64,000 nucleotides of DNA from Pseudomonas sp. (GCA_030699825.1 JAUYKV010000032.1:30231-94230), one strand, 5' to 3'; positions 46,107-63,582 are shown, counted from the first letter of the stretch. The notes: generated by a model from the letters alone, not told the origin. Program-made: numbers and translations.

Positions 46107-47009
46107 TTAACGGCGAAAGAACCGGTAGAACTCGCGCAGCTCAGCCTGCGCGTCGCCGATGCTGACTGGCGTGAAGCGCAGCGGATGGTGCGCGGGGCAT
46201 TGCGCCAGACGGCCTTGATCGAGCGGGTGCAGCCAACCGAGCAGCGGGTAACCGCCCATGCTCTGGTGGTCGGCCTGCAGGATGATCGGTTGCCCATCCG
46301 GCGGCACCTGAATCGCCCCGCGTCCAACCCCCGATGACCATTGCCGCACGGGCGCCTGCATGGCCTCGCCGAGCAACCGTGCACCCATGCGGTCGGAGTG
46401 CGGGCTGAGCTGCCAGGTCTGAGCGAAAAAGCCCTGCACCTGGTCTTCCTCGAAACTCGCCGCATCGCCGCCGGTAATCACCCGCAGCAAAGGTTTGCAG
46501 GCGTAATCCGGCAGATAGGGCCAGGGCACGCTGACGGCGCGGGTGAAATGCGCCGGCCGGCAAGCCAGCAAATCCCCCGCCTGCAATGCCTGCCCCAGCC
46601 CTTCGCGCAGCTGCACGCTGACGCTGCCCAGCACCGGAGCAGCAATAAAGCCGCCCGCCACCGCCAGATAGGCGCGCTGGCCGCTGCGGGCAAAGCCCAT
46701 GCGCAGCTGCTGCCCCTTGCGCAGCGGCACACGCGTCCACAGAGGTTGCGGCTGATCATCCACGCTCAGCGGCACCTGCGCGCCGCAAACCGCCACCCAT
46801 GTGTCGACCTCGGCCTGCAACTCGACGCCGCCCAGGGCGATTTCCAGCAGCGGCGTGCCCCAGGGATTGTTCAGCAGATGATTGGCCCAGGCCGCGCCAT
46901 GCCAATCCAGCGGCCCGGCTGGCGATACGCCAAGGTGTTGCCAGCCCTGCCGCCCCGCATCCTGAAGCAGGCTCTGCGGCCCAGGTTTGAGCACCCGCAG
47001 GCCGCTCAT
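46107..47009 (-). CDS. pxpC: 5-oxoprolinase subunit C / biotin-dependent carboxyltransferase family
   Basis: LKPGPQSLLQDAGRQGWQHLGVSPAGPLDWHGAAWANHLLNNP. Confidence 0.92.
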   Translation of the reverse strand: MSGLRVLKPGPQSLLQDAGRQGWQHLGVSPAGPLDWHGAAWANHLLNNPWGTPLLEIALGGVELQAEVDTWVAVCGAQVPLSVDDQPQPLWTRVPLRKGQQLRMGFARSGQRAYLAVAGGFIAAPVLGSVSVQLREGLGQALQAGDLLACRPAHFTRAVSVPWPYLPDYACKPLLRVITGGDAASFEEDQVQGFFAQTWQLSPHSDRMGARLLGEAMQAPVRQWSSGVGRGAIQVPPDGQPIILQADHQSMGGYPLLGWLHPLDQGRLAQCPAHHPLRFTPVSIGDAQAELREFYRFFRR

Positions 47010-47683
47010 AACTGACCTCCTTCGCGGATAAAGTCGCGCTCTTCAATGCTGCGAAAACGCACCCGATCACCCAGCATCAGTGGGCAGGGCGGCGTTCGCG
47101 CAGCATCGAACAGCGACCAGGGGCAACGGCCGATCAGGTGCCAACCGCCGGGTGAGCTGTGTGGGTAGATCGCCGTCTGCCGCTCGGCAATCGCCAGGCT
47201 ACCGGCCGGTACGGCAATGCGCGGGGTGGCTCGGCGCGGCAATGCCAGGCGCGCGTCCAGCTCGCCGAGGTAGGCAAAGCCCGGAGCAAACCCAATCGCG
47301 CCGACGCGGTACTCGGTGGCCGCATGCAGTTCGATCACCTGAGCGCTGCTCAGCTGACACAGACGCGCGACCTCGGCGAGGTCTTCACCGTTATACAAAA
47401 TGGGGATTTCGTGCAGCCGCCCGACCTGCGCAACAAAGGGCTCGGCCAGCCAGCGCTCCAGCAGCGGTTTGAGCCGCTCGGCCAGCTCCAGATGATCGGT
47501 ACGCAGCAGGTCGTAGTGCAACAACAGGCTGGTCCAGCCCGGCACCAGATCGGTCAGCACCTCGCCCAGCTCGCCACGGATGCGCTCGGCCAGCAAGGCA
47601 ATCCGTTGCGGTAGCTGCGCCTCCGGTTGCTCGGCCAGCACCAGCAACAGCGCTTCGGCACCGGCCGGTTCGAGGCGGATCAT
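47006..47683 (-). CDS. pxpB: 5-oxoprolinase subunit B
   Basis: GAIGFAPGFAYLGELDARLALPRRATPRIAVPAGSLAIAERQTAIYPHSSPGGWHLIG. Confidence 0.93.
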   Translation of the reverse strand: MIRLEPAGAEALLLVLAEQPEAQLPQRIALLAERIRGELGEVLTDLVPGWTSLLLHYDLLRTDHLELAERLKPLLERWLAEPFVAQVGRLHEIPILYNGEDLAEVARLCQLSSAQVIELHAATEYRVGAIGFAPGFAYLGELDARLALPRRATPRIAVPAGSLAIAERQTAIYPHSSPGGWHLIGRCPWSLFDAARTPPCPLMLGDRVRFRSIEERDFIREGGQL

Positions 47684-48429
47684 AGGGCGTCCAGGCTGGC
47701 CCGCAAACGCCGCAATACGGCCAGGGAGTCGGCGTTATCGCCATGCACGCACAGGCTGTCGGCGCGCAATTGCAGCGGCTTGCCATCGATATCGGCAAAC
47801 GGCTCACCCTGAGCAATCGCCAGGGCCTGTTGAAAGATCCGCTGCGGATCATGGTGCACCGCGCCGCTCAAACGCCTCGCCGCCAATTGCCCATCGGCCA
47901 GGTAGGCGCGATCGGCAAAGGCCTCGAACATCAACGGCACATCGGCGGCATCGGCCAGGCGCAGCTCGCGGCTGTTGTCAGCCAGCGCCAGCACCATCAG
48001 CGGCAGCCCCTTGCGGTAACTGGCGCAAGCCTCAAGCACCGCGTTGAACAGCGCATCGTCACGCACCAGATCGTTGTACAGCGCGCCATGCGGTTTGACG
48101 TAGGCCAACTGAGTGCCGGCCGCGCGGCAGAAGGCATCCAGCGCGCCAAGCTGATACAGCACCAGCGCAGTGACCTCCTCTGGCGAGCAGGCGATATGCC
48201 GGCGGCCGAAACCGAGCAGATCCGGATAGGCCGGGTGCGCACCAATGCTCACCCCATGCTGCACCGCCAGGGCGACGGTGCGTTGCATGGTCAGCGGGTC
48301 GGAGGCATGAAAGCCGCACGCCAGATTGGCCTGATCAATCAGCGGCATGGCATGCACGTCATCGCCCATGCGCCATACGCCGAAGCTTTCACCCATGTCG
48401 CAGTTCAGCAGGATTGTTTTCATGCCCAT
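47680..48429 (-). CDS. pxpA: 5-oxoprolinase subunit A (LamB/YcsF)
   Basis: LLNCDMGESFGVWRMGDD, QANLACGFHASDPLTM, VKPHGALYN. Confidence 0.94.
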   Translation of the reverse strand: MGMKTILLNCDMGESFGVWRMGDDVHAMPLIDQANLACGFHASDPLTMQRTVALAVQHGVSIGAHPAYPDLLGFGRRHIACSPEEVTALVLYQLGALDAFCRAAGTQLAYVKPHGALYNDLVRDDALFNAVLEACASYRKGLPLMVLALADNSRELRLADAADVPLMFEAFADRAYLADGQLAARRLSGAVHHDPQRIFQQALAIAQGEPFADIDGKPLQLRADSLCVHGDNADSLAVLRRLRASLDAL

Positions 48430-48565: not shown

Positions 48566-49654
48566 TCAAAGCCGGACTAGTTGCAGTGGCTCCTTGGGAA
48601 TGCAGCAGCAGGCCAGAATCTGCCCGGCCGGCAGCGCGAGGGCCGGCTGCTGGCGCCACTCCACTTCGCCCTTGCAGCCCAGCCGGCAGCTGCCGCAATG
48701 CCCGCCCCAGCAGTCCGCCGCCAGCTCCACGCCCTGTTCGTGCAGGGCATGCAGCAGGCTCGGCTGACCGTTGTAGTCCAGCGCCTCACCTTGCCAATCC
48801 AGAGCGAACTGCCCGGCACCCGCACCCAGGGCGCCCGCGCCGAAAGCCTCCCAATGCACCCGTGAATCAGGCAGGCCGAGATCGCTCAAATGCGCTAAAC
48901 AAGCCTTGAGCAAAGCGTCACCGGCGCAGATAAACACTTCGCTGTCAGCCGTGACGATCTCGCTCAAACGCTGGCGATCCAGCCGCCCCTGCCAAGCCGA
49001 GGGAACCTGACTGTCCCGGCTAAGCGCAGGGCGATAATCGAACTCAGGATGCGCAGCGGCCAGCGCCAGCAGCTCCTGGTGATAGGCCAGAGCCGCCTGG
49101 TCACGCCCGCCATAGAGCAAGGTCAGACGCCGACCGCCTGGCCGTTTGAGCCAGGCATGCAGCATGGCGCGCATCGGCGTGATGCCAACGCCGCCGGCAA
49201 TCAGTACCAGGTGCGGGCCATGTTGCGGCGCCAGGGTGAAATGTCCGGCCGGCGGCAGAATGCGCAGCGACCGCCCCGGCAGCGCCTGCTCGGCCAGCCA
49301 TTGGCTCATCCGTCCCAGCGCTTCGCGCTTGATACACAGCTGATACTGCCAGGGCCGTGAGTGCCAAGCCGCCAGGGAATAGCAGCGGCGCATGGGCCGC
49401 GAGCCGGGCGGCTGGGCGAGAATGGTAAGGAACTGCCCCGGCGCGAAACGCGGCAGCGGCAAACGCCAGGGATGTACCAGCTCCAGGTGCAGCAAATCCT
49501 CGCTCAGCCATTGACTGCGGCGAATGCGCAGACGTCGGCCCAAGCGCTGCTGACGCCCTTTCCACCAGAGCCACAGGCCGTGCAGGCTGATCGCCAGAGT
49601 CGCCAGCGCGCCGAGCAGACTCAGGCCGATCAGCAGCGCGGCGAGGTAGATCAT
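48566..49654 (-). CDS. membrane-anchored FAD/NAD(P)-binding oxidoreductase with C-terminal 2Fe-2S ferredoxin domain
   Basis: N-terminal TM, RCYSLAAW, LVLIAGGVGITPMRAML, DCWGGHCGSCRLGCK. Confidence 0.88.
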   Translation of the reverse strand: MIYLAALLIGLSLLGALATLAISLHGLWLWWKGRQQRLGRRLRIRRSQWLSEDLLHLELVHPWRLPLPRFAPGQFLTILAQPPGSRPMRRCYSLAAWHSRPWQYQLCIKREALGRMSQWLAEQALPGRSLRILPPAGHFTLAPQHGPHLVLIAGGVGITPMRAMLHAWLKRPGGRRLTLLYGGRDQAALAYHQELLALAAAHPEFDYRPALSRDSQVPSAWQGRLDRQRLSEIVTADSEVFICAGDALLKACLAHLSDLGLPDSRVHWEAFGAGALGAGAGQFALDWQGEALDYNGQPSLLHALHEQGVELAADCWGGHCGSCRLGCKGEVEWRQQPALALPAGQILACCCIPKEPLQLVRL

Positions 49655-49655
49655 T

Positions 49656-49801
49656 TAGCAGGCCGTTGAAAAACGTAGGCGAGGCAGCCGAGACAAGGCA
49701 AAAACAGGCGAAAAAGCGGAGTGTACGAGCTGTACATGAGCATTTTGAGCCTGTTTTTAACGCCGTATCGGCAACGCAGGTAGTTTTTCAACGGTCTGTT
49801 A
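49656..49801. repeat. palindromic element, covarying family, copy 5
   Basis: TAGCAGGCCGTTGAAAAACGTAGGCG ... GCAGGTAGTTTTTCAACGGTCTGTTA; inner AAAAACAGGC/GCCTGTTTTT; core GGAG-TGTAC-GAGCT-GTACA-TGAGC. Confidence 0.88.
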
Positions 49802-50476
49802 GATGGCGGCGCGACGGCGCGACTGCCACCAGACCCACACACCGGTCAGGCCGAGCAGGGCCAGGGTGAAACCGAGCACATCAATCCACACCCACTCGCC
49901 GCTCTTGCCGAAAAACGCCTTGCCGGTGTGCATATCCATCACCAGCTTGCCGACGGTGTAGGGCTTGACCACTTCACCCTGGGCAGCCAATAGCGCGTCA
50001 TTGCCGCCCCAGGCGTTCCAGCTCAAGCCGTCGCGGCTTTGCAGCGCGCCGATGTCCTTGACGCTGGCCATCAGCTGGCCGTCGGCCAGGCGAGTAATGC
50101 CGTGCACATCGCCTTCAAGACGCAGGGTAAGGTCATCGCCCTGCAGCTGATACAGACCCATCTTGCTGGCAACCCACAGGTTGTCGCCTTCACTCATCAA
50201 CTGACGCACTTCGACATCGGCCTGGCGTTGCGGCTGTTCATCGGCCCGCTGGACGAACAAGCCCTGCTGGCTGCCCAGCCACAAACGCCCATCGGCGGCC
50301 TGAGCCACGCTGCGCAGTTCAAGCTCCTTTTCCATGGGCATGGACAGCCAGCTGATCGGCATATCCTTGATGCCCAGGCTCTTCTCATGCGCCAGGAAGA
50401 TGGCCGTGACGCCGACAATAAACATCGGCAGGGCCAGTAGCACCCCGCTCCACAGGTGAATTTGACGGCTCGACAT
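49799..50476 (-). CDS. PepSY-TM-like membrane protein with propeller-like periplasmic region
   Basis: QIHLWSGVLLALPMFIVGVTAIFLAHEKSLG; repeated AADGRLWLGSQQGLF / GDNLWVASKMGLY; C-terminal TM. Confidence 0.75.
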   Translation of the reverse strand: MSSRQIHLWSGVLLALPMFIVGVTAIFLAHEKSLGIKDMPISWLSMPMEKELELRSVAQAADGRLWLGSQQGLFVQRADEQPQRQADVEVRQLMSEGDNLWVASKMGLYQLQGDDLTLRLEGDVHGITRLADGQLMASVKDIGALQSRDGLSWNAWGGNDALLAAQGEVVKPYTVGKLVMDMHTGKAFFGKSGEWVWIDVLGFTLALLGLTGVWVWWQSRRRAAI

Positions 50477-50494
50477 AGCGGTGACTCCTCAGGG

Positions 50495-52669
50495 TTACCA
50501 GCGGATTTCCAGGCTCATGCTGTACAGCGGCTCGGAATATTCTTGGGTGACTTCACGGTTTTTCAGCGACCCGTCAGCGTTGTATGCACGCTTTTCCTGG
50601 TCTTTTTGTGCCTGTCCGATGTTTTCGGCGGCCAGGCGCAAGGTCATGTCGTCCGTCAAATTGGCGTTGACGAACAGGTCGAAGAACTCGACCTCGGTGG
50701 TACTGGTGCTCTCGTTGCTGTTGCCGATTTCGTCTTCGAAGTCGCCGGCCTTGTTCCAGCTGCCGCCCACCGTCAAAACAGTGGCCGGAATGCGGTACTC
50801 CAGGCCGATGTTGGCCAGGTAGCCAGGCTGCTGCTTGAAGCGGCGCTTCTCGCCCGTGGCCTGGTCCTTCACTTCGGAATCCAGCCAGCTGTAACCGGCC
50901 GCGCTGCTCAGGCCGTCGATGCCCAACCAGGCGAGATCGCTGGAAAACTCCAGCTCGGCGCCCCACAGCTTGCCGTCACCGGTGTTGCGGGTCTGCTTGT
51001 AGTACTCGCCATCACCACTGTCGAGGTAGGTCACTTCCTCCATCAGGTGCTTGATGTCGCGGCGGAACAGGTTGAGGCCGATCAGCCCGGCATTGTCACC
51101 CAGGTAGTGTTCCAGCCCCAGGTCGTAGCCCAGGGACTCCTCAGGTTCGAGCGTCGGATTACCGATCTTGTTCGGGTCCGAGATGGTGCCACTCTTGCTG
51201 TCGACCATCGGCGTGATGTCATCGAACTTCGGCCGGCGCACGGTGCGTGCCACGCTGCTGCGCAATGCCCAGGCCTCGGCCAGGTCCCAGCGGTAATGCA
51301 AGGACGGGGCAAAGTGCTCTTCACGGCCATCGGCTTCGCTGCCAGGGATCGAGCTTGCCAGCTCGGAGCTTTCCCAGCGCAAGCCAGGCTGCAGGTGGTG
51401 CTTATCGTTGATGCGCCAGGTGTCGGTGACATACAGGTCGAAGCGCTTCTCTTCCAGCTCGTACTGGCCGTTGGCCTCAGCCTGAGTCACGCCATTGCTG
51501 ACCCGGGTCTTGTCGCGCTCGCGGTTCTTTTCGCTGTAGTCGTAACCGGCCAGCAGCTCATGGTCGCCACGCCAGTGGGTCAGGCTCTGGCCGAACTGCC
51601 ACTCGCGGTCATTCTTGTCTTCGTCTTCGGTCTCACGCTTGTCCAGCGCGCCATTGGCCTTGTAGATCAGCTTGGATTTGCGCTTCTGGTCGTCCAGGTC
51701 GCGTACGCTGAAATGGCTGTCGAGCTGCAGATCCTCAGCCAGCGGCCGCTCCCAACCCAGGCTGATGCCGAGGTTACGGCTGTTCATCAGCTCTTTCTCG
51801 TACTCCGAGCCGTTGCCGGTGCCGTCAGCCTTGAACTTGAGCTTGTCCTTGTCGCGATGCATTTCGCTGTCGAGCAGCAGCAGGTCGACATTGAGCATGT
51901 CGCCGCCCTCGCTCTGCCAGCCCCAATGCGGGGTCAGGAAGTTCTCGAAGAAGCGCTTGTTCTCACGCTCCTGCTCACGCGCGCCGGCAACGCCTGCGGC
52001 GTTGTAGGTCACTTTGTCCTTGAGCTTGGGCAGGCTGCGGGTCTGCCGGCCGCCGCTGATCAGCCATTGCTGACGCAAGTCGGCCTCACCCCAGCTGAAC
52101 TGCGCACTGCCATCCATCGGCCGCTGATCGCCACTGGCTGCACCGAGAATCACCTTGCGCTGCGCCGTGCTGCGCTTCTTCAGGATGATATTGAGAGTGC
52201 CACCGATGCCCTGGGCGTCCATCTGTGCGGTGGGCGAACGGAGGATCTCGATACGGTCGATCATTGCCATGGGGATCTGGTCGAGCTGCACTTCGCGCTT
52301 CTCGCCGCTGTCCGGCATGCGCCGACCATCCAGCAGGACCTGGGTGTACTCCTTGTCCAGGCCGCGCAGACGCAGGTCCTTGTTATCGCCAGGAGCACCG
52401 CCAAAATACATGCCGGTCTTGCGACGCAGTGCGTCACCCAGGCTGCCGTTGCCCGAACGGCGCAGCTCTTCACCGTCGATTACCACCTTGGGCGCGACCG
52501 ACTGGCGGCGTTCTTCAGTGGCGATGCGCACACCATCCACACGCATGGTCGGTAATGCCGTAACGCCGCTATCGGCCGCCTGGGCTGCCAATGGGGACAG
52601 CGTCGCCAGCGCCAGCAATGACAACAGACGCGGCTGCGCCTTAAGACTGAACGGCCATTGCTGCTGCAT
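50495..52669 (-). CDS. TonB-dependent receptor
   Basis: 724 aa; plug domain VTALPTMRVDG...LGDALRRKTGMYFGGAPGDNKDLRLRGL; C-terminal SLEIRW. Confidence 0.92.
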   Translation of the reverse strand: MQQQWPFSLKAQPRLLSLLALATLSPLAAQAADSGVTALPTMRVDGVRIATEERRQSVAPKVVIDGEELRRSGNGSLGDALRRKTGMYFGGAPGDNKDLRLRGLDKEYTQVLLDGRRMPDSGEKREVQLDQIPMAMIDRIEILRSPTAQMDAQGIGGTLNIILKKRSTAQRKVILGAASGDQRPMDGSAQFSWGEADLRQQWLISGGRQTRSLPKLKDKVTYNAAGVAGAREQERENKRFFENFLTPHWGWQSEGGDMLNVDLLLLDSEMHRDKDKLKFKADGTGNGSEYEKELMNSRNLGISLGWERPLAEDLQLDSHFSVRDLDDQKRKSKLIYKANGALDKRETEDEDKNDREWQFGQSLTHWRGDHELLAGYDYSEKNRERDKTRVSNGVTQAEANGQYELEEKRFDLYVTDTWRINDKHHLQPGLRWESSELASSIPGSEADGREEHFAPSLHYRWDLAEAWALRSSVARTVRRPKFDDITPMVDSKSGTISDPNKIGNPTLEPEESLGYDLGLEHYLGDNAGLIGLNLFRRDIKHLMEEVTYLDSGDGEYYKQTRNTGDGKLWGAELEFSSDLAWLGIDGLSSAAGYSWLDSEVKDQATGEKRRFKQQPGYLANIGLEYRIPATVLTVGGSWNKAGDFEDEIGNSNESTSTTEVEFFDLFVNANLTDDMTLRLAAENIGQAQKDQEKRAYNADGSLKNREVTQEYSEPLYSMSLEIRW

Positions 52670-52776
52670 ACGAACCTCCCCAGAAAATGAGGCGCGATTC
52701 TAATTGCTAATCAACCGCATTACCAAGTGAATTTGAAAGACATTTGATAATGCGTAAAAACCCTCAAGCTCCCGGC

Positions 52777-52836
52777 TCAGTAAACGTCGCGGCGATAACG
52801 ACCCTCTTCGCGCAGCGTGTTGATTGCGGCTCTGCC
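52777..52836 (-). pseudogene. 3' remnant of a CysJ/flavodoxin-reductase-type gene
   Basis: Minus strand reads RLGRAAINTLREEGRYRRDVY* immediately after an in-frame TGA. Confidence 0.5.
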
Positions 52837-53036
52837 GAGCCGTGCTCAGCAACACGCCGCCGGACGCCAACGCCCATGACAAAAGCGTCAGAAAACTCGC
52901 CCGAGTCAGTTGGGACGAATGCCGAACACCACAGGCGCGGTCACTTTTCGAGAATGTATAGCCTTTGTAAATGTTTAGCATTTGTATAAAGGCCTTATAT
53001 AGAATCGCCCTCCTGTTTTCTTATCACGCGAATTCC

Positions 53037-53636
53037 ATGAACGGCTTCCCTTGGCTCGGCACCCTGCGGCAATGGCACTGGATCAGCTCGGCGCTGTGTT
53101 TGGCCGGCATGCTGTTGTTTGCCGTGACCGGCATCACCCTCAACCATGCCGCGCAGATCGAAGCTAAACCGCAGGTTGTTAGCCATCAGGCGCAACTACC
53201 TGAAGCGCTGCAGACTGCACTGCAAAACAAACAGCCAAGCCAGGGCTTACCGCTGGAGCTGCGCCAGTGGCTGGAAACCGAGCTGGCGATTCGCCTGGAT
53301 GGCCGCGACGCCGAATGGTCGGATGGCGAGTTGTATATCGGCCTGCCGCGCCCTGGCGGCGATGCCTGGCTAAGCCTGGATATCGAATCCGGCGCGCTGG
53401 AGTTCGAGTCCACCGACCGCGGCTGGATCGCCTACCTGAATGACCTGCACAAGGGCCGCAATACCGGTACGGCCTGGTCCTGGTTTATCGATGCATTCGC
53501 CGTACTGAGCGTGGTGTTCTGCCTCAGCGGCCTGTTGCTACTGCAACGCTACGCCGGCAACCGTCCCAGCACCTGGCCGATGCTAGGCCTGGGCCTGGTG
53601 CTCCCTGTTCTGCTGGCTCTGCTGCTTATTCACTAA
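53037..53636 (+). CDS. PepSY-associated TM helix domain-containing protein
   Basis: LRQWHWISSALCLAGMLLFAVTGITLNHAAQIEAKP; DLHKGRNTGTAWSWFIDAFAVLSVVFCLSGLLLL. Confidence 0.88.
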   Translation: MNGFPWLGTLRQWHWISSALCLAGMLLFAVTGITLNHAAQIEAKPQVVSHQAQLPEALQTALQNKQPSQGLPLELRQWLETELAIRLDGRDAEWSDGELYIGLPRPGGDAWLSLDIESGALEFESTDRGWIAYLNDLHKGRNTGTAWSWFIDAFAVLSVVFCLSGLLLLQRYAGNRPSTWPMLGLGLVLPVLLALLLIH

Positions 53637-53646
53637 GGACATCCTT

Positions 53647-54159
53647 ATGCCGAAACGCTTGCTGTTGCCCCTGTGCGCCCTGTTGAGCACGCCCGTTCTG
53701 GCTGCTGAGTTGCAGCTTGAGGTGGAAATCCCGCGTATGCAGGTGGCCGAATATCACCGCCCCTACGTCGCAATCTGGCTGGAGCAACCGGACCAGAAGC
53801 ACGTCGCCAACCTGGCCGTGTGGTACGACCAGAAGCTCAAGGACAAGGAAGGCGAGAAATGGCTCAAGGACATGCGCCAATGGTGGCGCCGCAGCGGCCG
53901 TAGCCTGGAGATGCCGGTCGATGGCGTCAGCGGGGCAACCCGCGCCGTGGGCAAGCATAGCCTGAGCTTCAACAGTGCCGATGCCCCGCTCAAGCAGCTG
54001 GCACCTGGCGAGTATCGCCTGGTAGTGGAAGCCGCCCGTGAAGTCGGCGGCCGCGAACTGCTGCGCCTGCCATTCACCTGGCCACCACAGCAAGCCGCCA
54101 GTCACAGCGCCCAGGGCAGCAGCGAGCTGGGCCAGATCAACCTGCAACTCAAGCCTTGA
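53647..54159 (+). CDS. DUF2271 domain-containing exported protein
   Basis: YHRPYVAIWLEQPDQKHVANLAVWYDQKLKDKEGEKWLKDMRQWWRRSGR. Confidence 0.85.
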   Translation: MPKRLLLPLCALLSTPVLAAELQLEVEIPRMQVAEYHRPYVAIWLEQPDQKHVANLAVWYDQKLKDKEGEKWLKDMRQWWRRSGRSLEMPVDGVSGATRAVGKHSLSFNSADAPLKQLAPGEYRLVVEAAREVGGRELLRLPFTWPPQQAASHSAQGSSELGQINLQLKP

Positions 54160-54191
54160 ACTTCAGCCCCCACTTATTAAGGAAGCTTGCC

Positions 54192-55055
54192 ATGCACCCA
54201 CTCGTAAAATGGACCGCCCTGACCCTGGCCATCTGCCTGCCGCTGTCCGCCCAGGCCCACCGCGCCTGGATGCTGCCATCGGCCACCGTGCTGTCCGGTG
54301 AAGACCCGTGGGTGACCGTGGACGCGGCCGTATCCAACGACCTGTTCTACTTCGAGCATTTCTCCATGCGTATCGAGGGCATCGGTGACATAAGCACGCA
54401 GCCCGCCGGCCAGCGCGCCCGCCCGGCCCCGAAGCTGCACGTGTTCGCCCCGGACGGCAGCGAAGTGAAGCCGCAGAACGGCGCCATCGGTCGCTACCGC
54501 AGCACCTTCGACCTGCACCTGACTCAGAAAGGCACCTACAAACTGGCCATCGCCAACAGCGGCCTGTTCGCCAGCTGGAAAGAAGGCCAGGAAAACAAGC
54601 GCTGGATGGGCAAGGCCGAAGATTTCGCCAAGCAGGTGCCGGCCAACGCCGCCGAGCTGAAAGTGGCGCAGAACAGCAGCCGCATGGAAGTCTTCGTCAC
54701 CTCCGGCAACCCGACCACCAGCGTGCTGAAAACCACCGGTGTGGGCCTGGAGCTGGCGCCGATCACCCACCCCAACGACCTGTTCGGCGGTGAAGCAGCC
54801 GAGTTCAGCCTGCTGCTCGATGGCAAGCCGGCCACCGGTGTTGAAGTCAGCGTGATCCCCGGTGGCAACCGTTACCGCGACGAGCTGGGCGAGATCAAAA
54901 CCACCAGCGACGCCAACGGCAAGATCAGCATCACCTGGCCGAACGCCGGCATGTACTGGCTGGAAGCCAAGCTGAGCAGCAAAGAAGGCGTCAGCGCCCC
55001 AGCCACCGAACGCCGCGCCTCCTACAGCGCGACCCTGGAAGTTCTGGCGCCCTGA
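54192..55055 (+). CDS. DUF4198 domain-containing exported protein
   Basis: AHRAWMLPSATVLSGEDPWVTVDAAVSNDLFYFEH; HPNDLFGGEAAEFSLLLDGKPATGVEVSVIPGGNRYRDE. Confidence 0.85.
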   Translation: MHPLVKWTALTLAICLPLSAQAHRAWMLPSATVLSGEDPWVTVDAAVSNDLFYFEHFSMRIEGIGDISTQPAGQRARPAPKLHVFAPDGSEVKPQNGAIGRYRSTFDLHLTQKGTYKLAIANSGLFASWKEGQENKRWMGKAEDFAKQVPANAAELKVAQNSSRMEVFVTSGNPTTSVLKTTGVGLELAPITHPNDLFGGEAAEFSLLLDGKPATGVEVSVIPGGNRYRDELGEIKTTSDANGKISITWPNAGMYWLEAKLSSKEGVSAPATERRASYSATLEVLAP

Positions 55056-55120
55056 TGCCAGCTCGAACGCTGTCGCCGCCTGGCGACAGCGCTTCCTACC
55101 TCATTAGCTGAATATTTGAC

Positions 55121-56674
55121 TTGATCACCACCCCGCGACTTCCCGCCCTGCGCCACTGGCCCTTGCCGACCTGCCTGTTACTGGCCGGCCTGCTGCTATG
55201 GCTACAACCGGCGCGCGAACTCAGCGCTGGGCTGATCAGCGTCACCTATCTCGCGTTGTGCCTGCACTATTGCTGGCCACAACGCCGCAACCAACACGCA
55301 GCCCAAACTGGCGAACTGCTGATTGCCTACGCCAGCCAGGGCGGTCAGGCACAGTTGCTGGCCGAACGCAGCTGTGCGCAACTGCTCGCCAGCGGCATGC
55401 CGGCACGCTGCATCGCCCTTAACCAACTCGGCAGCGTCCAGCTGGCAAGCCTCGAACGCTTGCTGCTGGTGGTCAGCACCTATGGCGACGGCGAAGCACC
55501 GGACAACGCCGCACGCTTCGAGCACGTGCTGCTCAGGCAACAAGCGCTACCGCAACTGCACTTCGCCATCCTCGCCCTGGGCGACAGCAGCTACCCGCAG
55601 TTCTGCGCCTTCGGCCAGCGCCTGCAACAAGGTTTGCAAGCGCTCAAGGCGCAGCCGCTGTTCGACCTGCTCAGCGTCGATTGCCTGGATGCCGGCACCC
55701 TGCGCCACTGGCAGCAACAGCTCGGCCACCTCAGCGGCAACAGCGATTTTGTCGACTGGCAGCCCGCGCACTACCACCCCTGGCGGCTGGAGCGGCGCAG
55801 CTGCCTTAACCCCGGCAGCGTTGGTGCGCCAATCTTTCAGCTGAGCCTGAGCAGCACGGCCGCAGTCGACTGGCGCGCCGGCGACATTGCCGAAATCGGC
55901 CCACGGCATCCCCCGCAGCGAGTTAGCGATTGCCTGCAGCAGCTGGGGCTTGAGCCGCACACTCCCCTGGCTAACGGCCAGTTGCTAAGCGATGCCTTGA
56001 GCACGCTGCATCTGCCCACATCCCGGCCTGATAAGAACGCCCTAGCACAGTGGCTAGCCGAACTGACGCCCCTGCCGCACCGCGAATACTCGATTGCTTC
56101 CAGCCACGGCAGCGGCCAGCTCGATCTGCTGGTACGCCTGCAATACCAGGCCGATGGCAGCCCTGGCCTGGGCTCGGGCTGGCTGTGCCAGCATGCCGAA
56201 GTGGGCGCTACGCTCGACCTGCGTATTCGCCGCAACCCCGGCTTCCATGGCCCGGACGCCGCCACGCCACTGATCCTGATCGGCAGCGGCAGCGGCCTCG
56301 CCGGCCTGCGCGCGCACCTGCAGGAGCGCGCCGCCGATCCACACTCACGCAACTGGCTGCTATTCGGCGAACGCCACGCCGCCCACGACGCCCTGCTGAG
56401 CGACGAACTACACGCCTGGCAACACAGCGGCCACCTCGAACGCCTCGACCTCACCTATTCGCGCGACGGCCACCCGCAGCGCTATGTGCAGGACGCCCTA
56501 CGCCACGCCGCAAGCACCCTGCACGCCTGGCTGGCCGACGGCGCCGCCATCTACCTGTGCGGCAGCCTCGAAGGCATGGGCCGCGATGTCGACGCTTGCC
56601 TGCGTCAGTTGCTGGGTGATGAGCAGTTGGAGCAGCTAAGCCAGAGCGGCCGCTATCGGCGGGATTTGTACTGA
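55121..56674 (+). CDS. membrane-anchored flavodoxin/CysJ-like NADPH reductase flavoprotein
   Basis: GELLIAYASQGGQAQLLAERSC (flavodoxin), REYSIASSHGSGQLDLLVRLQ, ILIGSGSGLAGLRAHLQER, SGRYRRDLY*; start uncertain. Confidence 0.85.
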   Translation: MITTPRLPALRHWPLPTCLLLAGLLLWLQPARELSAGLISVTYLALCLHYCWPQRRNQHAAQTGELLIAYASQGGQAQLLAERSCAQLLASGMPARCIALNQLGSVQLASLERLLLVVSTYGDGEAPDNAARFEHVLLRQQALPQLHFAILALGDSSYPQFCAFGQRLQQGLQALKAQPLFDLLSVDCLDAGTLRHWQQQLGHLSGNSDFVDWQPAHYHPWRLERRSCLNPGSVGAPIFQLSLSSTAAVDWRAGDIAEIGPRHPPQRVSDCLQQLGLEPHTPLANGQLLSDALSTLHLPTSRPDKNALAQWLAELTPLPHREYSIASSHGSGQLDLLVRLQYQADGSPGLGSGWLCQHAEVGATLDLRIRRNPGFHGPDAATPLILIGSGSGLAGLRAHLQERAADPHSRNWLLFGERHAAHDALLSDELHAWQHSGHLERLDLTYSRDGHPQRYVQDALRHAASTLHAWLADGAAIYLCGSLEGMGRDVDACLRQLLGDEQLEQLSQSGRYRRDLY

Positions 56675-56828
56675 AGGCAAGCTGGTCGACTGGTTTAGTC
56701 GCACACCCACACCTTGCAATACCGCGGCCTTAGGCGCACTTCCTCGATTGCGGGTCAAAGCCTCGCCAACAAGAGCCAAGTATCCCGGCAAAATCCCGCT
56801 TAGCCTCGTTATATAGCCTGCACAAAAC

Positions 56829-56862
56829 AAAACCCCGGCACTGCTGGCAGTGCCGGGGTTTT
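56829..56862 (-). terminator. intrinsic terminator downstream of the TonB receptor
   Basis: AAAACCCCGGCACTG-CTGG-CAGTGCCGGGGTTTT. Confidence 0.9.
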
Positions 56863-56911
56863 GAGTAAAGCGTTTCTGTCGGTGCAACCCAAAGGCTGCA
56901 CCAGCACACAC

Positions 56912-59191
56912 TTAGAAGCGATAAGTCGCCGACAGTACAGCCGAGCGCGCAGCGCCATATTCAACAGCCGAAGAGCGTGCAGCCGTGGTGCCTGCACCGG
57001 CGGTGGTACCCACTTGAGTACGCACGCTCTCAACATATTCCTTGTCGAATAGGTTGTTGAGGTTCAACTGCAAATCCAGCTCTTTGTTGACCTGGTAACC
57101 GAGCATGGCGTTGTGCAGCCAGTAGGCATCCAGCTTGACTCCGTCGTTGGAGGCGGTGAGGTTGCGCTCACTGACATAGCGAGCACCGTAACCAACGCGC
57201 CAGCCAGCGGGCAGCTCATAGGTAGTCCACAGATTGAACGAACGCGGCGGAGTATTGGCCAGAGCCTGACCTTCACGCGCGATCCCTGCAGCAGTGTTAG
57301 CCGCTTCCAAGGTTTCGCTATCAAGGAATGTGTAATTGGCAAAAATATTCCACTGATCAGTAATGCGTCCAGTCGCGCCTAACTCAACCCCCTGCACGCG
57401 CTGCTTACCCGCCAGCTGGGTCGAACCATCCACCATCGTTTCACGGGCATTGCTCTTCTCTACACGAAACACTGCCGCATCAAGCCCCAGGCGATTATCG
57501 AGGAACTCCCACTTGGTCCCCAGCTCCCAGGTTTTGTTCTTTTCCGGGGCCAGGTCTTCAGTCGCCGCAGAAAGGCCGGCGCCGCTGGTGGCCAGGTTCT
57601 CGGCCGACGGGTTGAACGAGTCGCCATAGGCAAGGTAGATACGTCCATTGTCTGCCGGCTTATAGGTCAGCCCTGCACGCTTGCTCAAATGCTCATCGCT
57701 TGAGTTGAAGGAAGTCCGGGCATTGGTTGCCAGGGAGTGATCATCGGCATCACCATCCACCCAGTCGTAACGCAGACCGAGACTCAGGTCCCAGTAGTCA
57801 TTCAATGCGATGGTATCGAACGCGTACAGCGCGCGGTCGAGCAGGCGCGTCTTAATCGTCGCGCTATCAGCCTTATTGGTAGGACCATTCCAGCGGCCTG
57901 GCGGATTGCTTAGGTCATAGCCGGTATCGGGGAACACCAGGCCATAGGCATAGGTCGTGCGGTCATAAGTCTCACGCGACAACTCAACACCACTAACCAA
58001 GGTATGCGCCAAGCCCAAGGTTTCGAAATTGGCGGTCAGGTTGGTCTGGTTGATCAACATTTTACTGGTGACATCGCGGCCATAAGCCTGCGGACCTGCC
58101 GGTAGATACTTACCCGGCGCAAGGATTGGTCCGAGACCACCGGTACGACGGCGATCCAGATTGACGTGCGACGCAGAGATGACGGTGTCTCGATGGATCT
58201 CTGAGTAACGGGTCAGGCTCTGCAAACTCAGACTGTCATTGAAGTCGTGCTCCAGCTTGACCGTGAAAGCATCACTATCGATTTCTTCCTTATCCAGATT
58301 GCGCCAGCCAAAAAAGCTTTCACGGTCAACACCCGCCAGGCGCTTGCCATTGATTGCCGGCACGCCGTAATCAGGCAGGTTGTCGTCCGTTTGGTGGAAG
58401 TAACTCAGGGTCAAACGCGTCGATTCGCTCAGGCCCAACAGCAGCGACGGTGCAATACCCCAGCGCTGACGGTCGACATAGTCACGACCCGGTACATCGT
58501 TCTCATGGGCCATCAGGTTGAGGCGCACTGCACTGCCGGTGCCGACGCCTTCCAGGGTCTGGTTGGTGTCCAGAGTCAGGCGGTGGTAGTTGTCAGTACC
58601 CAGGCTCGCACCGATCTCGGTGAAATCGCGCTGGAGTGGCTGCTTGCTGACCTGGTTGATGCTGCCGCCGGTGGTACCGGAGCCGCCAAATACCGAGTTG
58701 GGGCCTTTGATGACTTCAACGGCTTCGATATTGAAAGTGTCAGTACGGTTGTTCTGCGAGCTGTCGCGCAGGCCGTCGATCTGCATGTTGGCGTTGGCGC
58801 TGAAGCCACGGATGTTGATGCTGTCGCCCGAGCCGCCACCGCCTTCACCGGCGTTGAAGGTGATACCGGATACGTTGGCCAACACTTCTTTCATGCTCAG
58901 GGCTTTCTGCTCTTTGAGCAGGGCCTGTGGCACCACGGTGATGGTTTGCGGGGTATCGAGCAGCCGCACAGCGTATTTAGCCGAGGACGATGCCTCGGTC
59001 TTGTAGTCTTCGGCCTGCTGGCCTTTGACCGTTACGCTACCCAACTCAACCGGCGTCCTTGCCTTTTGCGGCGCTTGTTCAGCAGCCACACCAGCGCCCG
59101 CCCAGGACGCGATTACCAGACCAATGGCCGAAGCCAGAAGGCGACGCTGCGGCAGGTTGCCGGCTTTTGTACCCATACCCATAAGAACCAC
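56912..59191 (-). CDS. TonB-dependent siderophore receptor (Fiu-like catecholate type)
   Basis: 759 aa; TPQTITVVPQALLKEQ, VSGITFNAGEGGGGSGDSINIRGFSANANMQIDGLRDSSQNNRD-type plug; C-terminal YRF. Confidence 0.92.
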   Translation of the reverse strand: MVLMGMGTKAGNLPQRRLLASAIGLVIASWAGAGVAAEQAPQKARTPVELGSVTVKGQQAEDYKTEASSSAKYAVRLLDTPQTITVVPQALLKEQKALSMKEVLANVSGITFNAGEGGGGSGDSINIRGFSANANMQIDGLRDSSQNNRTDTFNIEAVEVIKGPNSVFGGSGTTGGSINQVSKQPLQRDFTEIGASLGTDNYHRLTLDTNQTLEGVGTGSAVRLNLMAHENDVPGRDYVDRQRWGIAPSLLLGLSESTRLTLSYFHQTDDNLPDYGVPAINGKRLAGVDRESFFGWRNLDKEEIDSDAFTVKLEHDFNDSLSLQSLTRYSEIHRDTVISASHVNLDRRRTGGLGPILAPGKYLPAGPQAYGRDVTSKMLINQTNLTANFETLGLAHTLVSGVELSRETYDRTTYAYGLVFPDTGYDLSNPPGRWNGPTNKADSATIKTRLLDRALYAFDTIALNDYWDLSLGLRYDWVDGDADDHSLATNARTSFNSSDEHLSKRAGLTYKPADNGRIYLAYGDSFNPSAENLATSGAGLSAATEDLAPEKNKTWELGTKWEFLDNRLGLDAAVFRVEKSNARETMVDGSTQLAGKQRVQGVELGATGRITDQWNIFANYTFLDSETLEAANTAAGIAREGQALANTPPRSFNLWTTYELPAGWRVGYGARYVSERNLTASNDGVKLDAYWLHNAMLGYQVNKELDLQLNLNNLFDKEYVESVRTQVGTTAGAGTTAARSSAVEYGAARSAVLSATYRF

Positions 59192-59220
59192 CCCCGATCA
59201 AAACGAGGCGTGATTCTAAT

Positions 59221-59235
59221 TGATAACTATTATCA
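59221..59235. promoter_or_regulatory. putative Fur box upstream of the Fiu-like receptor
   Basis: TGATAACTATTATCA, near-palindromic, adjacent to TTAGAATCA -10-like motif on minus. Confidence 0.7.
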
Positions 59236-59261
59236 AGCAATAGTCGTTTACACCTTTATTC

Positions 59262-60404
59262 TTATTTAGTTCCATTGCCGCGATTTTTATCTTGTAGGCT
59301 CTGGCTGCCAATACTGGCCAGGTCACGGCAGCCGGTCAGCGCCATAGCCACTTCCAGCTCAGCACGCAGCAGTTGCACCACATGCGCCACTCCGCTCGCA
59401 CCGGCGGCGGCCAAACCGTACACATAAGGTCGCCCCACCATTACGGCGTCGGCGCCCAGGGCCAGGGCCTTGAACACATCCGTACCGCGGCGAATACCGC
59501 CATCGAGCAACAGTGGCACGCGCCCCTGCACTGCGGCGGCGATATCCGCCAGCACCTCGATGGTCGCCGGTTGGCCGTCAAGAGTACGCCCGCCATGGTT
59601 GGAGACGACGATACCGTCGACACCCTCGGCCACCGCTCGCTGCGCATCCTCGGCAGTCATCACGCCCTTGAGCAGAATCGGCAGGCGCGTCAATGAGCGC
59701 AGCCATTGCACATCGGCCCAACCAGGCGCTGCTGCCAATAACGCACCGCCAAGTAGCAGACCACCACTGGGCGGCGCACCCTCATGCAACGGCTGCATGC
59801 CACGCAGATTGACCGCCTCGACGCCCTCGGGCAGAAAGAAACCGGCGCGCTGTTCACGGTTGCGCACGCCATTGACCGGCGCATCTACCGTCAGCACTAG
59901 CGCCTTATAACCCGCAGCCTCGGCGCGCTTGACCAACACCTCGGTAAAGGCCCGATCCGGCTGGATATACAGCTGAAACCACAACGGATTGTGTGCCTGC
60001 TCGGCCACGGCTTCGAGGGACACACTGGCCTGGGTGCTAAGCACCATGCCAGCTTGTACCGCCGAGGCGGCCAGCACCGTGGCCAGCTCGCCATCGGCAT
60101 GAGCCAAGCGTTGATAGGCCACAGGCGCGAGGAAAATCGGGTGGGCAAAAGTCTGACAGAACAGCTGCAGATGGGTATTGCCGCAGCTCAGATCGGCCAG
60201 CACCCGCGTGCGCAAACGAATGCGTTGAAACGCCGCCTGATTCTCCGCCAGGGTCAGCTCATCAGCCGCACCGCCAGCGATATAAGCCCAGGCCTGAGCG
60301 CTCATGCGCTCGCGGGCCAGGGGCTCATAGTCCGCCACGGCTGCGATGCTCGGCGGAATCTGCGTCAATTTCGGCAACGGCATGTCGGTCATGTATTGGC
60401 CCAT
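59262..60404 (-). CDS. FMN-dependent alpha-hydroxy-acid oxidizing protein
   Basis: [78 protein letters not shown]. Confidence 0.93.
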
Positions 60405-61069
60405 TGGCGCAGCAGGTTGTGATAAACCCCGGTCAAACGCGCCAACTCGGCACTCTCCGGCACCTCAAGGGTTAGCGCCTGCAACGCCCGATCCAGCTCC
60501 AGCAACAGGCTGCGCTGAGTGTCATCGCGCACCAGGCTCTGAATCCAGAAGAATGCCGCATAGCGCGTGCCACGGGTCACCGGATTGACCCGGTGCAGGC
60601 TGCTGCCGGGATACAGCACCAGATGCCCAGCCGGCAACTTGACGCTGTGGCTGCCGTAGCTGTCCTCGACCACCAGCTCACCGCCGTCGTACTCATCCGG
60701 ATCACTGAAAAACAGCGTGGCCGACAGATCGCTGCGCACCCGATGCGGCGTGCCCGGCACGCTGAAAATCGCATTGTCGATATGGTTGCCATAGGTGCCA
60801 CCACCGCTGTAACGGTTGAAGCGCGGTGGCAACACCTTCAGCGGCAAAGCCGCCGAGACAAACTGCGGATGATTACCCAGGCGCTGAACAATAAAATCGC
60901 CAATCTGCACCACCAGCGGGTCATCCTGAGCCAATTGCTGATTAGCCTTGGCCTTGACCGCCTGGTGACCCGCCGTCAGCCGACCATCCTGCCAACTGGC
61001 CTGCTCAAAGGCCTGACGGCACTCACGCACCTGCTCAGGCGTCAGCACATCGGCAATGCTCAACATCAT
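60389..61069 (-). CDS. piuC: Fe2+-dependent dioxygenase (PiuC/PKHD hydroxylase)
   Basis: [58 protein letters not shown]. Confidence 0.92.
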
Positions 61070-61230
61070 GATTCGCTCTCCTCAACGGCCGCCTCAAGCG
61101 CCCGCCACCAAACAGTTGCAAATGATTCTAAATAGCTGGAGCGCACTATGACAGCGCCGCACGCCGGGACCGTTGATCCAGCCCAAGAAGTTGAGCCGAT
61201 GCATTGGCCCACCGGCTAGCGGCACAGCAT

Positions 61231-61270
61231 AAAAAACGCCCCGGATACCAAAGCATCCGGGGCGCGTTTT
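61231..61270 (-). terminator. intrinsic terminator downstream of the TonB receptor
   Basis: AAAAAACGCCCCGGAT-ACCAAAGC-ATCCGGGGCGCGTTTT. Confidence 0.88.
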
Positions 61271-61284
61271 GCTGCCTGAGCGAC

Positions 61285-63582
61285 TTAGAAGCGGAAGTCG
61301 GTGCTCAGGGTCAGGGTGCGTGGATCGCCGAGCATGGCGCGGCGACCATTCCAGTTGGTGGAAACGGCGTACTCCTCATCAGTCAGGTTATCCAGGTTGA
61401 CCCGTACATCCAGGTTCGGATTGACCTCGTAGGACGCCATCGCATTGAAGGTGGTGTAGCTCGGCAGCTTACCCACTGCGCCGTTGGGAATGATGCGCTC
61501 GGCATCGTCCGGACGGCCCAGGTAGGACGAACCCACATGCTTGGCACCCGCACCGATGGTCACGCCAACCGGCAGACGGTAGGTGGTCCACAGGCTACCC
61601 GACACGCGCGGGGTAAAGGCCAACTCATCACCACTGGTGCGATCCACTGTGCCGTAGTCAGCGGCGTTGGCACGCTTGCGTACGTCATCCAGGTAGGAAC
61701 TGTGCTTACGCTCGCTGTCCATAAAGACGATGCCGGCAAACACATTCCAGTCGTCAGTAATTTTGCCTGTGGCACTTAGCTCCAGACCTTTGACGATCTG
61801 CTTGCCGTAACCCTTGAGGGTAGCTGGCGCTGCCTGCCCCGCATCAAGCCCGGTAATCGGCACGTCCTTTTTCACGGTGTAGAACAGCGCTGCGGCCGTC
61901 GAAAGACGCTTGTCGAAGAAGTCCCACTTGGTACCCAGCTCGTAGCTGTCGGCCTTAACCGGACCGGCGCCATCCACCAGCCCTGGCATAGCCTGACCAG
62001 CGACGCGGGAAATGTCAGCGTTCGACAGGAAAGAACCTGCTGGCTGCACCGAGCGGCCATAAGCGGCGTAGATGCTGCCGTATTCCACCGGTTTGTAAAC
62101 CAGGCCCAGCTTGCCGGCCACGGTGAACTCGGTGTCATCGTAGCCATCCGGCCCTACAGGTGCGCCGGCAACGGTCTTGCTGCTGATATCGACCTGGTAG
62201 TTCTCCAGACGCAGGCCGCCGGTGACTTGCCACTGCTTGTTCAGCTCGATGGTGTCGTACACGTACAGGGCAACCGTATCGACCGTCACCTCATTGCGCT
62301 CGGCAGCACGCTCGGCGGCAGGCCCGGCACGGTTGTAATCCGGATCAAAGATATTTGCATTACCCGGATTGATCGCAGCGTAGGTCGCGCCTTCGGACTT
62401 TTCGCGAGCCAGCTCCAGACCGGTCGCCAGATTGTGCTGCAAGCTACCGGTAGCAAACTGCGCAGACAGGTTGGTCTGGTTGGACAGGCTGGTGTTAACC
62501 CGATCATAAAACTGTGTATCGGTACGCAGCTGGTCACCGCCCAGGAACTGAAATGGCACGGTGTAACGCGCATCACGGTCAACCCGCGCCCAGCGAGTCT
62601 GGTTGCTCAGGGTCAGGCCAGTGGACAAATCGTGCTCGACACGCGCCAGGAAGGCATCGCTGGTGGTGTCGTCATAATCGGACTTGAGGCCATAGAACTT
62701 GTCGCGATCTACCGACGATAGCGACGGATCATAAACAGCCTTGAGCCCCTTGACCGACGAGCCGGACACGCCCCAGTCCGGGCGATCACTCATCTGCACA
62801 TGCTCATAGGCAAAGATCGCGCGGGTATCGGTGCCCAGACCAAAAGCCACCGACGGCGCGATGCCCCAGCTGTTGTTCTCCGCGTGCTCGCGGCCGGCCA
62901 CGCCGCTGTCTTCCAGCAGCAGGTTGAGGCGCGCGGCAGTAGTCTCGTTGATCACCTGGTTGGTATCCAGGGTCATGCGCTTGCGTGCCTCGGAATCGTA
63001 CTGGTCGAAGGCATAGCTGATGCCGCCACCAATAAACTCTTCCAAGGTCGGCGTCTTGGTCACCAGATTGATATAACCACCAGCACCGCCACGGCCGTTA
63101 TCGGCGGCCGGGCCCTTGGCCACTTCAACCGACTCGACGTTGAACACGTCGCGGGTGTAGCTGCCGTTGTCGCGCGCACCGTCGATAAAGATGCTGCCGC
63201 TGGTGTCGAAACCACGCAGGCTGAAATTGTTGGTGCCGCTGGCAAAGCCGTTTTCCCCGGCATTGAAGCTGATACCCGGAGTGTTGCTCAGCACGTCCGT
63301 CAGGTTGCGCGCGCCTTGCTCCTTGAACAGCGCTTCAGGGATCACGCTGAAGGTTTGCGGCGTATCCAACAGTGGCGCGGTCTGCTTCGGCGAGGAGGCC
63401 TTATCGACCTTGTAGCCTGTGTCCTGCTGACCTTTGACCGTAACGCTGCCCAGCTCTACCGGAGCTTTCTCGGCTTCGGCGGCAAAACTGTGGCTGGCGC
63501 ACGAAGCAATGGCAAAGCCGATTGCACTGGCCAACAGGCGGCGTTGTGGGAGATTTCTGCGCTTTTTATCGTAGTTGTTCAT
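61285..63582 (-). CDS. TonB-dependent siderophore receptor (PiuA-like)
   Basis: 765 aa; LLDTPQTFSVIPEALFKEQGARNLTDVLSNTPGISFNAGENGFASGTNNFSLRGFDTSGSIFIDGARDNGSYTRD. Confidence 0.92.
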   Translation of the reverse strand: MNNYDKKRRNLPQRRLLASAIGFAIASCASHSFAAEAEKAPVELGSVTVKGQQDTGYKVDKASSPKQTAPLLDTPQTFSVIPEALFKEQGARNLTDVLSNTPGISFNAGENGFASGTNNFSLRGFDTSGSIFIDGARDNGSYTRDVFNVESVEVAKGPAADNGRGGAGGYINLVTKTPTLEEFIGGGISYAFDQYDSEARKRMTLDTNQVINETTAARLNLLLEDSGVAGREHAENNSWGIAPSVAFGLGTDTRAIFAYEHVQMSDRPDWGVSGSSVKGLKAVYDPSLSSVDRDKFYGLKSDYDDTTSDAFLARVEHDLSTGLTLSNQTRWARVDRDARYTVPFQFLGGDQLRTDTQFYDRVNTSLSNQTNLSAQFATGSLQHNLATGLELAREKSEGATYAAINPGNANIFDPDYNRAGPAAERAAERNEVTVDTVALYVYDTIELNKQWQVTGGLRLENYQVDISSKTVAGAPVGPDGYDDTEFTVAGKLGLVYKPVEYGSIYAAYGRSVQPAGSFLSNADISRVAGQAMPGLVDGAGPVKADSYELGTKWDFFDKRLSTAAALFYTVKKDVPITGLDAGQAAPATLKGYGKQIVKGLELSATGKITDDWNVFAGIVFMDSERKHSSYLDDVRKRANAADYGTVDRTSGDELAFTPRVSGSLWTTYRLPVGVTIGAGAKHVGSSYLGRPDDAERIIPNGAVGKLPSYTTFNAMASYEVNPNLDVRVNLDNLTDEEYAVSTNWNGRRAMLGDPRTLTLSTDFRF

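Follow-up and report, generated by a model that had tools for sequence, protein, structure and literature searches.

A stretch of 64,000 nucleotides from Pseudomonas sp. (GCA_030699825.1, JAUYKV010000032.1:30231-94230), here called the window, was analysed for a divergent seven-gene locus at positions 48566 to 56674 that contains PepSY-type membrane proteins, reductases, exported DUF2271 and DUF4198 proteins and a TonB-dependent receptor. The genome to which the window belongs (G000) is a 3.8 Mb assembly that is 79% complete. Open reading frame and Pfam domain calls bore out the original prediction in the presence of the seven genes, their domain types and their coordinates, with the exception of the start codons of the PepSY-TM protein and the DUF4198 protein. 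A comparison of orthologue starts placed the former most likely at 53037 instead of 52971, while the latter was probably the ATG at 54192 and not the TTG at 54156. The gene spacing was operon-like on both strands, except for a gap of 145 bp between the genes of the 2Fe-2S reductase and the adjoining propeller protein, designated PepProp. The genes and sites of the locus are as follows.

48566-49654, minus strand: membrane-anchored NAD(P)H/FAD/[2Fe-2S] reductase (PF00970, PF00175, PF00111)
49799-50476, minus strand: PepProp, a two-helix PepSY-TM-like protein with a partial beta-propeller in the place of the PepSY domain (alignment, profile, AlphaFold, Foldseek)
50495-52669, minus strand: TonB-dependent receptor of an orphan type (Pfam, tree; relatives at 27-32% identity)
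52697-52726, minus strand: promoter-like site of the receptor operon, overlapping a Fur-like site at 52700-52718 (motif scan)
52967-52985, plus strand: Fur-like site upstream of the plus operon (matrix; the stretch is nearly identical in the sister genome)
53037-53636, plus strand: PepSY_TM_like_2 membrane protein (PF16357, 278.6 bits; corrected start)
53647-54159, plus strand: DUF2271 periplasmic protein, predicted to be flavinylated by ApbE (DUF2271, 181 bits; motif)
53920-53940, plus strand: flavinylation motif DGVSGAT in DUF2271 (acceptor Thr98 invariant in eight orthologues)
54192-55055, plus strand: DUF4198 periplasmic protein (185 bits; corrected start)
55121-56674, plus strand: membrane-linked flavodoxin and NAD(P)H-binding (CysJ-like) reductase (Pfam domains, alignment)

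The complete gene order was kept in a sister metagenome-assembled genome, HGW-Gammaproteobacteria-13 (L016), and the whole locus is known solely from the window and this genome. The plus operon recurred in Pseudomonas, in other Pseudomonadaceae, in other Gammaproteobacteria and on a named Acidovorax plasmid, and pairs of the minus-half genes were found in two other lineages. Since the order is kept in the sister genome and the plus operon recurs so widely, the locus is not a chance arrangement. Most of its components belong to established kinds, the minus half alone being new.

The plus half is the described flavinylation-associated PepSY system, consisting of a PepSY_TM-like protein, DUF2271, DUF4198 and a flavodoxin-NAD(P)H reductase. 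The PF16357 match adjoins DUF2271, as in the published system, for which 2833 clusters with DUF2271 and 1500 with DUF4198 were reported; ApbE is frequent in these clusters but lies outside the published definition (PMC8238504). The PepSY_TM_like_2 protein has four histidines (His 14, 37, 138 and 199) that were invariant in the orthologue alignment, and is a probable transmembrane haem protein. In DUF2271, the published [ST]GA[ST] motif was intact within DGVSGAT, and the Asp, Gly and acceptor Thr were invariant in the eight orthologues, while the other positions varied (TGPT, TQPT, TSPT, SAAT). Flavinylation of this motif by ApbE was shown experimentally for the DUF2271 protein of Amantichitinum ursilacus (PMC8238504). 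Searches of PDB sequences with the PepSY-TM and DUF2271 proteins gave no match. A literature search by COG number likewise had no result. As a separate observation, several DUF2271 proteins of other genomes (L049, L050, L051, L052 and L061) retained the DG and the acceptor Thr but not [ST]GA[ST], and in L049, L050 and L052 the sole ApbE of the genome shares the same operon.

The original prediction overlooked both this flavinylation motif and the histidine predicted to open the mature DUF4198 protein. It regarded the DUF2271-DUF4198 step as uncharacterised, a view that the literature does not sustain. Besides the demonstration that DUF2271 is an ApbE substrate and the publication of the operon (PMC8238504), the Caulobacter genes CC_3059-3063, which encode a transporter/PepSY protein, DUF2271, DUF4198, ApbE and a sulfite-reductase-like flavoprotein, are Fur-repressed (PMC3751524), transposon mutants in these genes lose fitness on EDTA (PMC12004947), and a DUF4198 structure with bound nickel is available (PMC12537917). 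In the window, electrons would pass from NADPH to the flavodoxin/CysJ-like reductase, be carried across the membrane by haem bound to the PepSY-TM protein and reach FMN covalently bound to DUF2271, which would reduce Fe(III).

The window operon has no apbE, the usual member of such operons. Two ApbE proteins are encoded elsewhere in G000, one beside nqrF and the other with a second DUF2271 system. In two complete genomes with the plus operon (G012 and G321), the sole ApbE of the genome adjoins nqrF, and in three others (G597, G749 and G808) it sits inside the DUF2271 operon, so that every checked genome with the plus operon keeps an ApbE, either local or linked to nqr. The position beside nqrF was found in three Pseudomonadaceae lineages that carry the operon lacking apbE. 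From this distribution we infer that the FMN on the window DUF2271 is attached by the nqr-linked ApbE. The pattern of one apbE per genome suggests that a single ApbE could serve both Nqr and iron uptake; if so, respiration and iron acquisition would depend on the same modifying enzyme. The second DUF2271 system of G000, on contig C64 (L018:7500-11319), comprises a 741-residue fused PepSY-flavodoxin-NAD reductase and its own ApbE, with a divergent two-component system upstream; a similar order of DUF2271, fused reductase and ApbE occurred in G005, G006 and G014.

The signal peptide of the DUF4198 protein ended in AxA followed by His in all eight DUF4198 sequences, with cleavage predicted, and the His codon at 54258 is predicted to encode the first residue of the mature protein. 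His1, His34 and His171 of the mature protein were invariant in these sequences. The AlphaFold model (pLDDT 80, pTM 0.79) had low confidence in the N-terminal strand and the region of His34, and the geometry of the site therefore cannot be judged from it. The Foldseek matches of the model included Zcp structures carrying copper, zinc or cobalt (E 1e-12) as well as the Ni-bound DUF4198 structure 9gcb (E 1e-8). The invariant mature histidines and these matches to metal-bound folds make it likely that DUF4198 is a metal-binding periplasmic protein, which would use its N-terminal histidine to hold a metal ion. The matches to 9gcb and Zcp, together with the Ideonella DUF4198 protein, which binds nickel with a Kd of 18 nM and has a Ni-bound structure (PMC12537917), would also suit a DUF4198-based system that takes up nickel, cobalt or zinc. 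We consider this very improbable, given that the histidine spacing differs (His1/His18 in IsDUF4198, His1/His34 here), that no Zur-type motif was found in the window and that the operon type is Fur-regulated in Caulobacter.

In the minus half, the 2Fe-2S reductase has one N-terminal hydrophobic helix and plant-type 2Fe-2S cysteines that are conserved with its counterpart in another lineage (L039 in G510), and is proposed from its sequence to be the cytosolic electron donor to PepProp. In an alignment of four PepProp sequences His 7, 30 and 183 were invariant. They lie near both membrane faces, as in FoxB-type proteins, and PepProp may bind haem. In profile comparisons PepProp matched FoxB (7abw) at both helices, although the N-terminal match was very weak, and propeller sensor proteins between them; a Reg_prop match of 18.4 bits was below the cut-off. 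The AlphaFold model showed propeller blades at residues 54-147 with good local confidence and helices with poor confidence, and the Foldseek matches of the model were propellers. FoxB-type proteins have PepSY domains and at least four helices, while PepProp has two helices and beta-propeller blades. Because it fell below the PepSY_TM cut-off and has no PepSY domain, PepProp was not filed as a member of the FoxB family; it may work like one. The TonB receptor would import a chelate, and electrons would flow from NAD(P)H through the 2Fe-2S reductase to the haem of this minimal PepSY-type protein, whose periplasmic domain is a predicted partial beta-propeller, and on to the chelate.

PepProp is rare. 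It was found in one of 300 genomes of the genus, the window's own, and only sparsely among those of the order and class; the sister genome was the sole match in a scan of genome contigs, none was found in a search of plasmids, and a literature search for PepSY combined with a propeller found nothing. PepProp and the reductase were paired in G510 at 39-46% identity, and PepProp and a receptor with 31% identity to that of the window were paired in G710; the plus operon did not adjoin either pair. In G510, an open reading frame divergent from PepProp (L039:9109-10107) has a TonB-like N-terminus and a CheB end and is possibly an assembly chimera. Contig C34 of that genome ends within a TonB gene next to a related receptor, and an overlap check of the ends of C34 and C49 found no shared bases.

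Two elements of the locus are new, namely a half-propeller PepSY protein that comes with a dedicated reductase, and the apparent reliance on an apbE beside nqr in place of one in the operon. We tentatively suggest, though we would not bet on it, that the minus operon represents a new class of metal-chelate reductase, in which a half-propeller PepSY haem protein has a dedicated NAD(P)H/FAD/2Fe-2S reductase as cytosolic donor, and perhaps acts as a homodimer, with a complete six-bladed propeller sitting on a four-helix haem bundle. The electron donor of FoxB, a PepSY-type siderophore reductase, was described as unknown (PMC13038864). Here, each of two PepSY-type membrane proteins is encoded in one operon together with a possible NAD(P)H-dependent donor, in one case a flavodoxin-type reductase and in the other a 2Fe-2S-type reductase, which makes the donor question testable.

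Among the relatives of the window receptor (27-32% identity) are receptors linked to PepProp and others linked to phytase. TonB receptors at eight loci (L074, L075 and L090-L095) lie beside phytase, metallophosphoesterase or inositol catabolism genes, five of these neighbourhoods being Pfam-confirmed or annotated and the rest assigned by sequence similarity, and are likely a family of inositol-phosphate receptors. These eight (27-29% identity, one with inositol catabolism and phosphoesterase genes) raise the alternative that the window receptor takes up an inositol phosphate, which may arrive as a ferric phytate complex whose iron the reductases release. This is quite unlikely, as the phytase-linked clade had a support of 100/100 with the window receptor outside it, and no phytase was noticed beside the window receptor.

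The receptors also bear on the relation of the two halves. In G012 and G321, a catecholate-type receptor is encoded directly upstream of the plus operon, and a receptor is also upstream in two members of another family of the class (L057 and L058), that of L058 grouping with the G012 and G321 receptors in the tree. No receptor of this type was found in G000, and matches in the sister genome reached only 34%. Because of this absence and because the receptor of the window falls into another group, the lineage seems to have replaced the receptor of the plus operon by the divergent cassette. The halves may then be independent iron modules sharing a promoter region, the plus half a general periplasmic ferric reductase that formerly had its own CirA-type receptor and the minus half a separate receptor-reductase cassette in its place, an explanation also favoured by the solitary pairs in G510 and G710. 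We regard it as a serious contender that falls somewhat short of an even chance, since the same kind of Fur-like site is present on both halves and the sister species, though closely related, retains the divergent layout.

The strict 19-bp Fur consensus, allowing up to three mismatches, gave no match in the window, and a Fur-type matrix was therefore trained on eight sites from relatives and the flanking promoters, excluding the divergent promoter of the locus. The five top positions in the 64 kb were 61118 and 59216, both training sites, followed by 52700, 52967 and 63617, the last in the PiuA promoter; all five are within promoters of iron-type genes. The sites at 52700 and 52967, in the divergent intergenic region, thus ranked third and fourth overall and were the first and second among untrained sites. 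The latter resembles a site at L056:8579. Among relatives, stronger consensus matches of 16/19 (L059) and 13/19 (L058) were found at the plus operon, 15/19 at a receptor-PepProp operon (L054) and 13/19 at the PepProp-reductase pair (L039), but these are not independent of the matrix because several were in the training set.

The region downstream of the plus operon, at 56912-63582, encodes a Fiu-type receptor, an FMN-dependent dehydrogenase, PiuC and a second PiuA-like receptor, so the kinship with piu-type genes that had been suspected was corroborated by the neighbourhood. Its features include the following.

56828-56863, unstranded: strong hairpin of 16 bp that separates the plus operon from the Fiu gene, with a T-tract on its minus-strand side; it may terminate transcription in both directions
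56912-59191, minus strand: Fiu-type catecholate siderophore receptor, with a Fur-like site at 59216
60389-61069, minus strand: PiuC-type 2OG-Fe(II) dioxygenase, with a Fur-like site at 61118

Genes for a Fiu-type receptor, PiuC or an FMN dehydrogenase also lay close to the plus operon in G012, G749 and G808; in G597 a Fiu-type receptor gene was nearby. The FMN-dependent alpha-hydroxy-acid dehydrogenase occurred repeatedly with PiuC and Fiu (window 59262-60404, L017:2059-3228 and L059:3588-4814). On the other side, directly downstream of the minus operon, is a PxpABC-type 5-oxoprolinase operon (46107-48429), for which no iron link was seen.

This setting also bears on copper acquisition of the kind performed by Bordetella CrtA-CrpH, in which a TonB receptor would cooperate with a PepSY-type copper reductase and DUF4198 would be a copper or zinc carrier. 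CrtA receptors usually precede PepSY_TM genes (PMC12914433, PMC13038864) and the DUF4198 fold resembles copper-bound Zcp. However, CrpH and related proteins are built from four or more helices, with large cavities on the periplasmic side, and PepProp has two helices; the crtA promoter has no Fur site, while Fur-like sites are present here and in relatives; the flank holds piu/Fiu iron genes; and the receptor starts about 30 bp from a promoter-like site, which leaves no room for a cruR-type leader gene. Copper is accordingly an unlikely substrate.

Taken together, the sequence evidence indicates that this divergent locus is probably under Fur control and serves iron acquisition by reducing ferric chelates in the periplasm. 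The operon type and motifs support the predicted inner-membrane electron route, in which the reduction itself is deduced, and the Fur-like sites, the piu/Fiu flank and the Fur-regulated operon type support iron over other metals. Several observations weigh on the other side. Each half occurs without the other in other genomes, which makes it doubtful that, as had been proposed, there is one route around one receptor. The structural relatives of DUF4198 bind nickel, copper, zinc or cobalt, none having been shown with iron; PepProp scored 23.1 bits with PF03929 against a cut-off of 28.8; and the receptor's wider kin are linked to phytases. The Fur training set was small, and the window sites are modest, 12/19 at best, with a P value for the region of about 0.02 with the trained matrix and 0.19 with the plain consensus. 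Finally, FeoB was not found in G000, at its 79% completeness, or in the complete genomes G012 and G321, so reduced iron would have to enter by another transporter; among these three, Nramp was above the cut-off in G012 only.

Comparison with known systems places the halves differently. The plus operon resembles the system of PMC8238504 and Caulobacter CC_3059-3063 in its PepSY-like protein, DUF2271 with the motif, DUF4198, NAD(P)H flavoprotein and probable Fur-type control, but lacks apbE, which is beside nqrF instead, and has a divergent second operon. The operon of Acidovorax sp. DW039 plasmid pACDW039_1 (L061) has the same order of PepSY-TM, DUF2271, DUF4198 and reductase, with 54-60% identity in the first three proteins and 43% in the reductase, but carries apbE between DUF4198 and the reductase, with no adjoining receptor or propeller protein. 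The genes related to PiuA/PiuC (CciT/CciO), namely the Fiu/PiuA-like receptors, PiuC and the FMN-dependent dehydrogenase, adjoin the seven-gene locus but are outside it. The minus half shares with CrtA-CrpH the succession of a TonB receptor and a PepSY-type gene, and differs in its Fur-like sites and its receptor and PepSY subtypes. PepProp is like FoxB, HiuB and FpvG in its adjoining TonB receptor and in the positions of its membrane-helix histidines, which correspond to those of haem-binding PepSY proteins, but differs from them in having two helices instead of at least four, a partial beta-propeller instead of PepSY domains and a neighbouring reductase as a possible donor.

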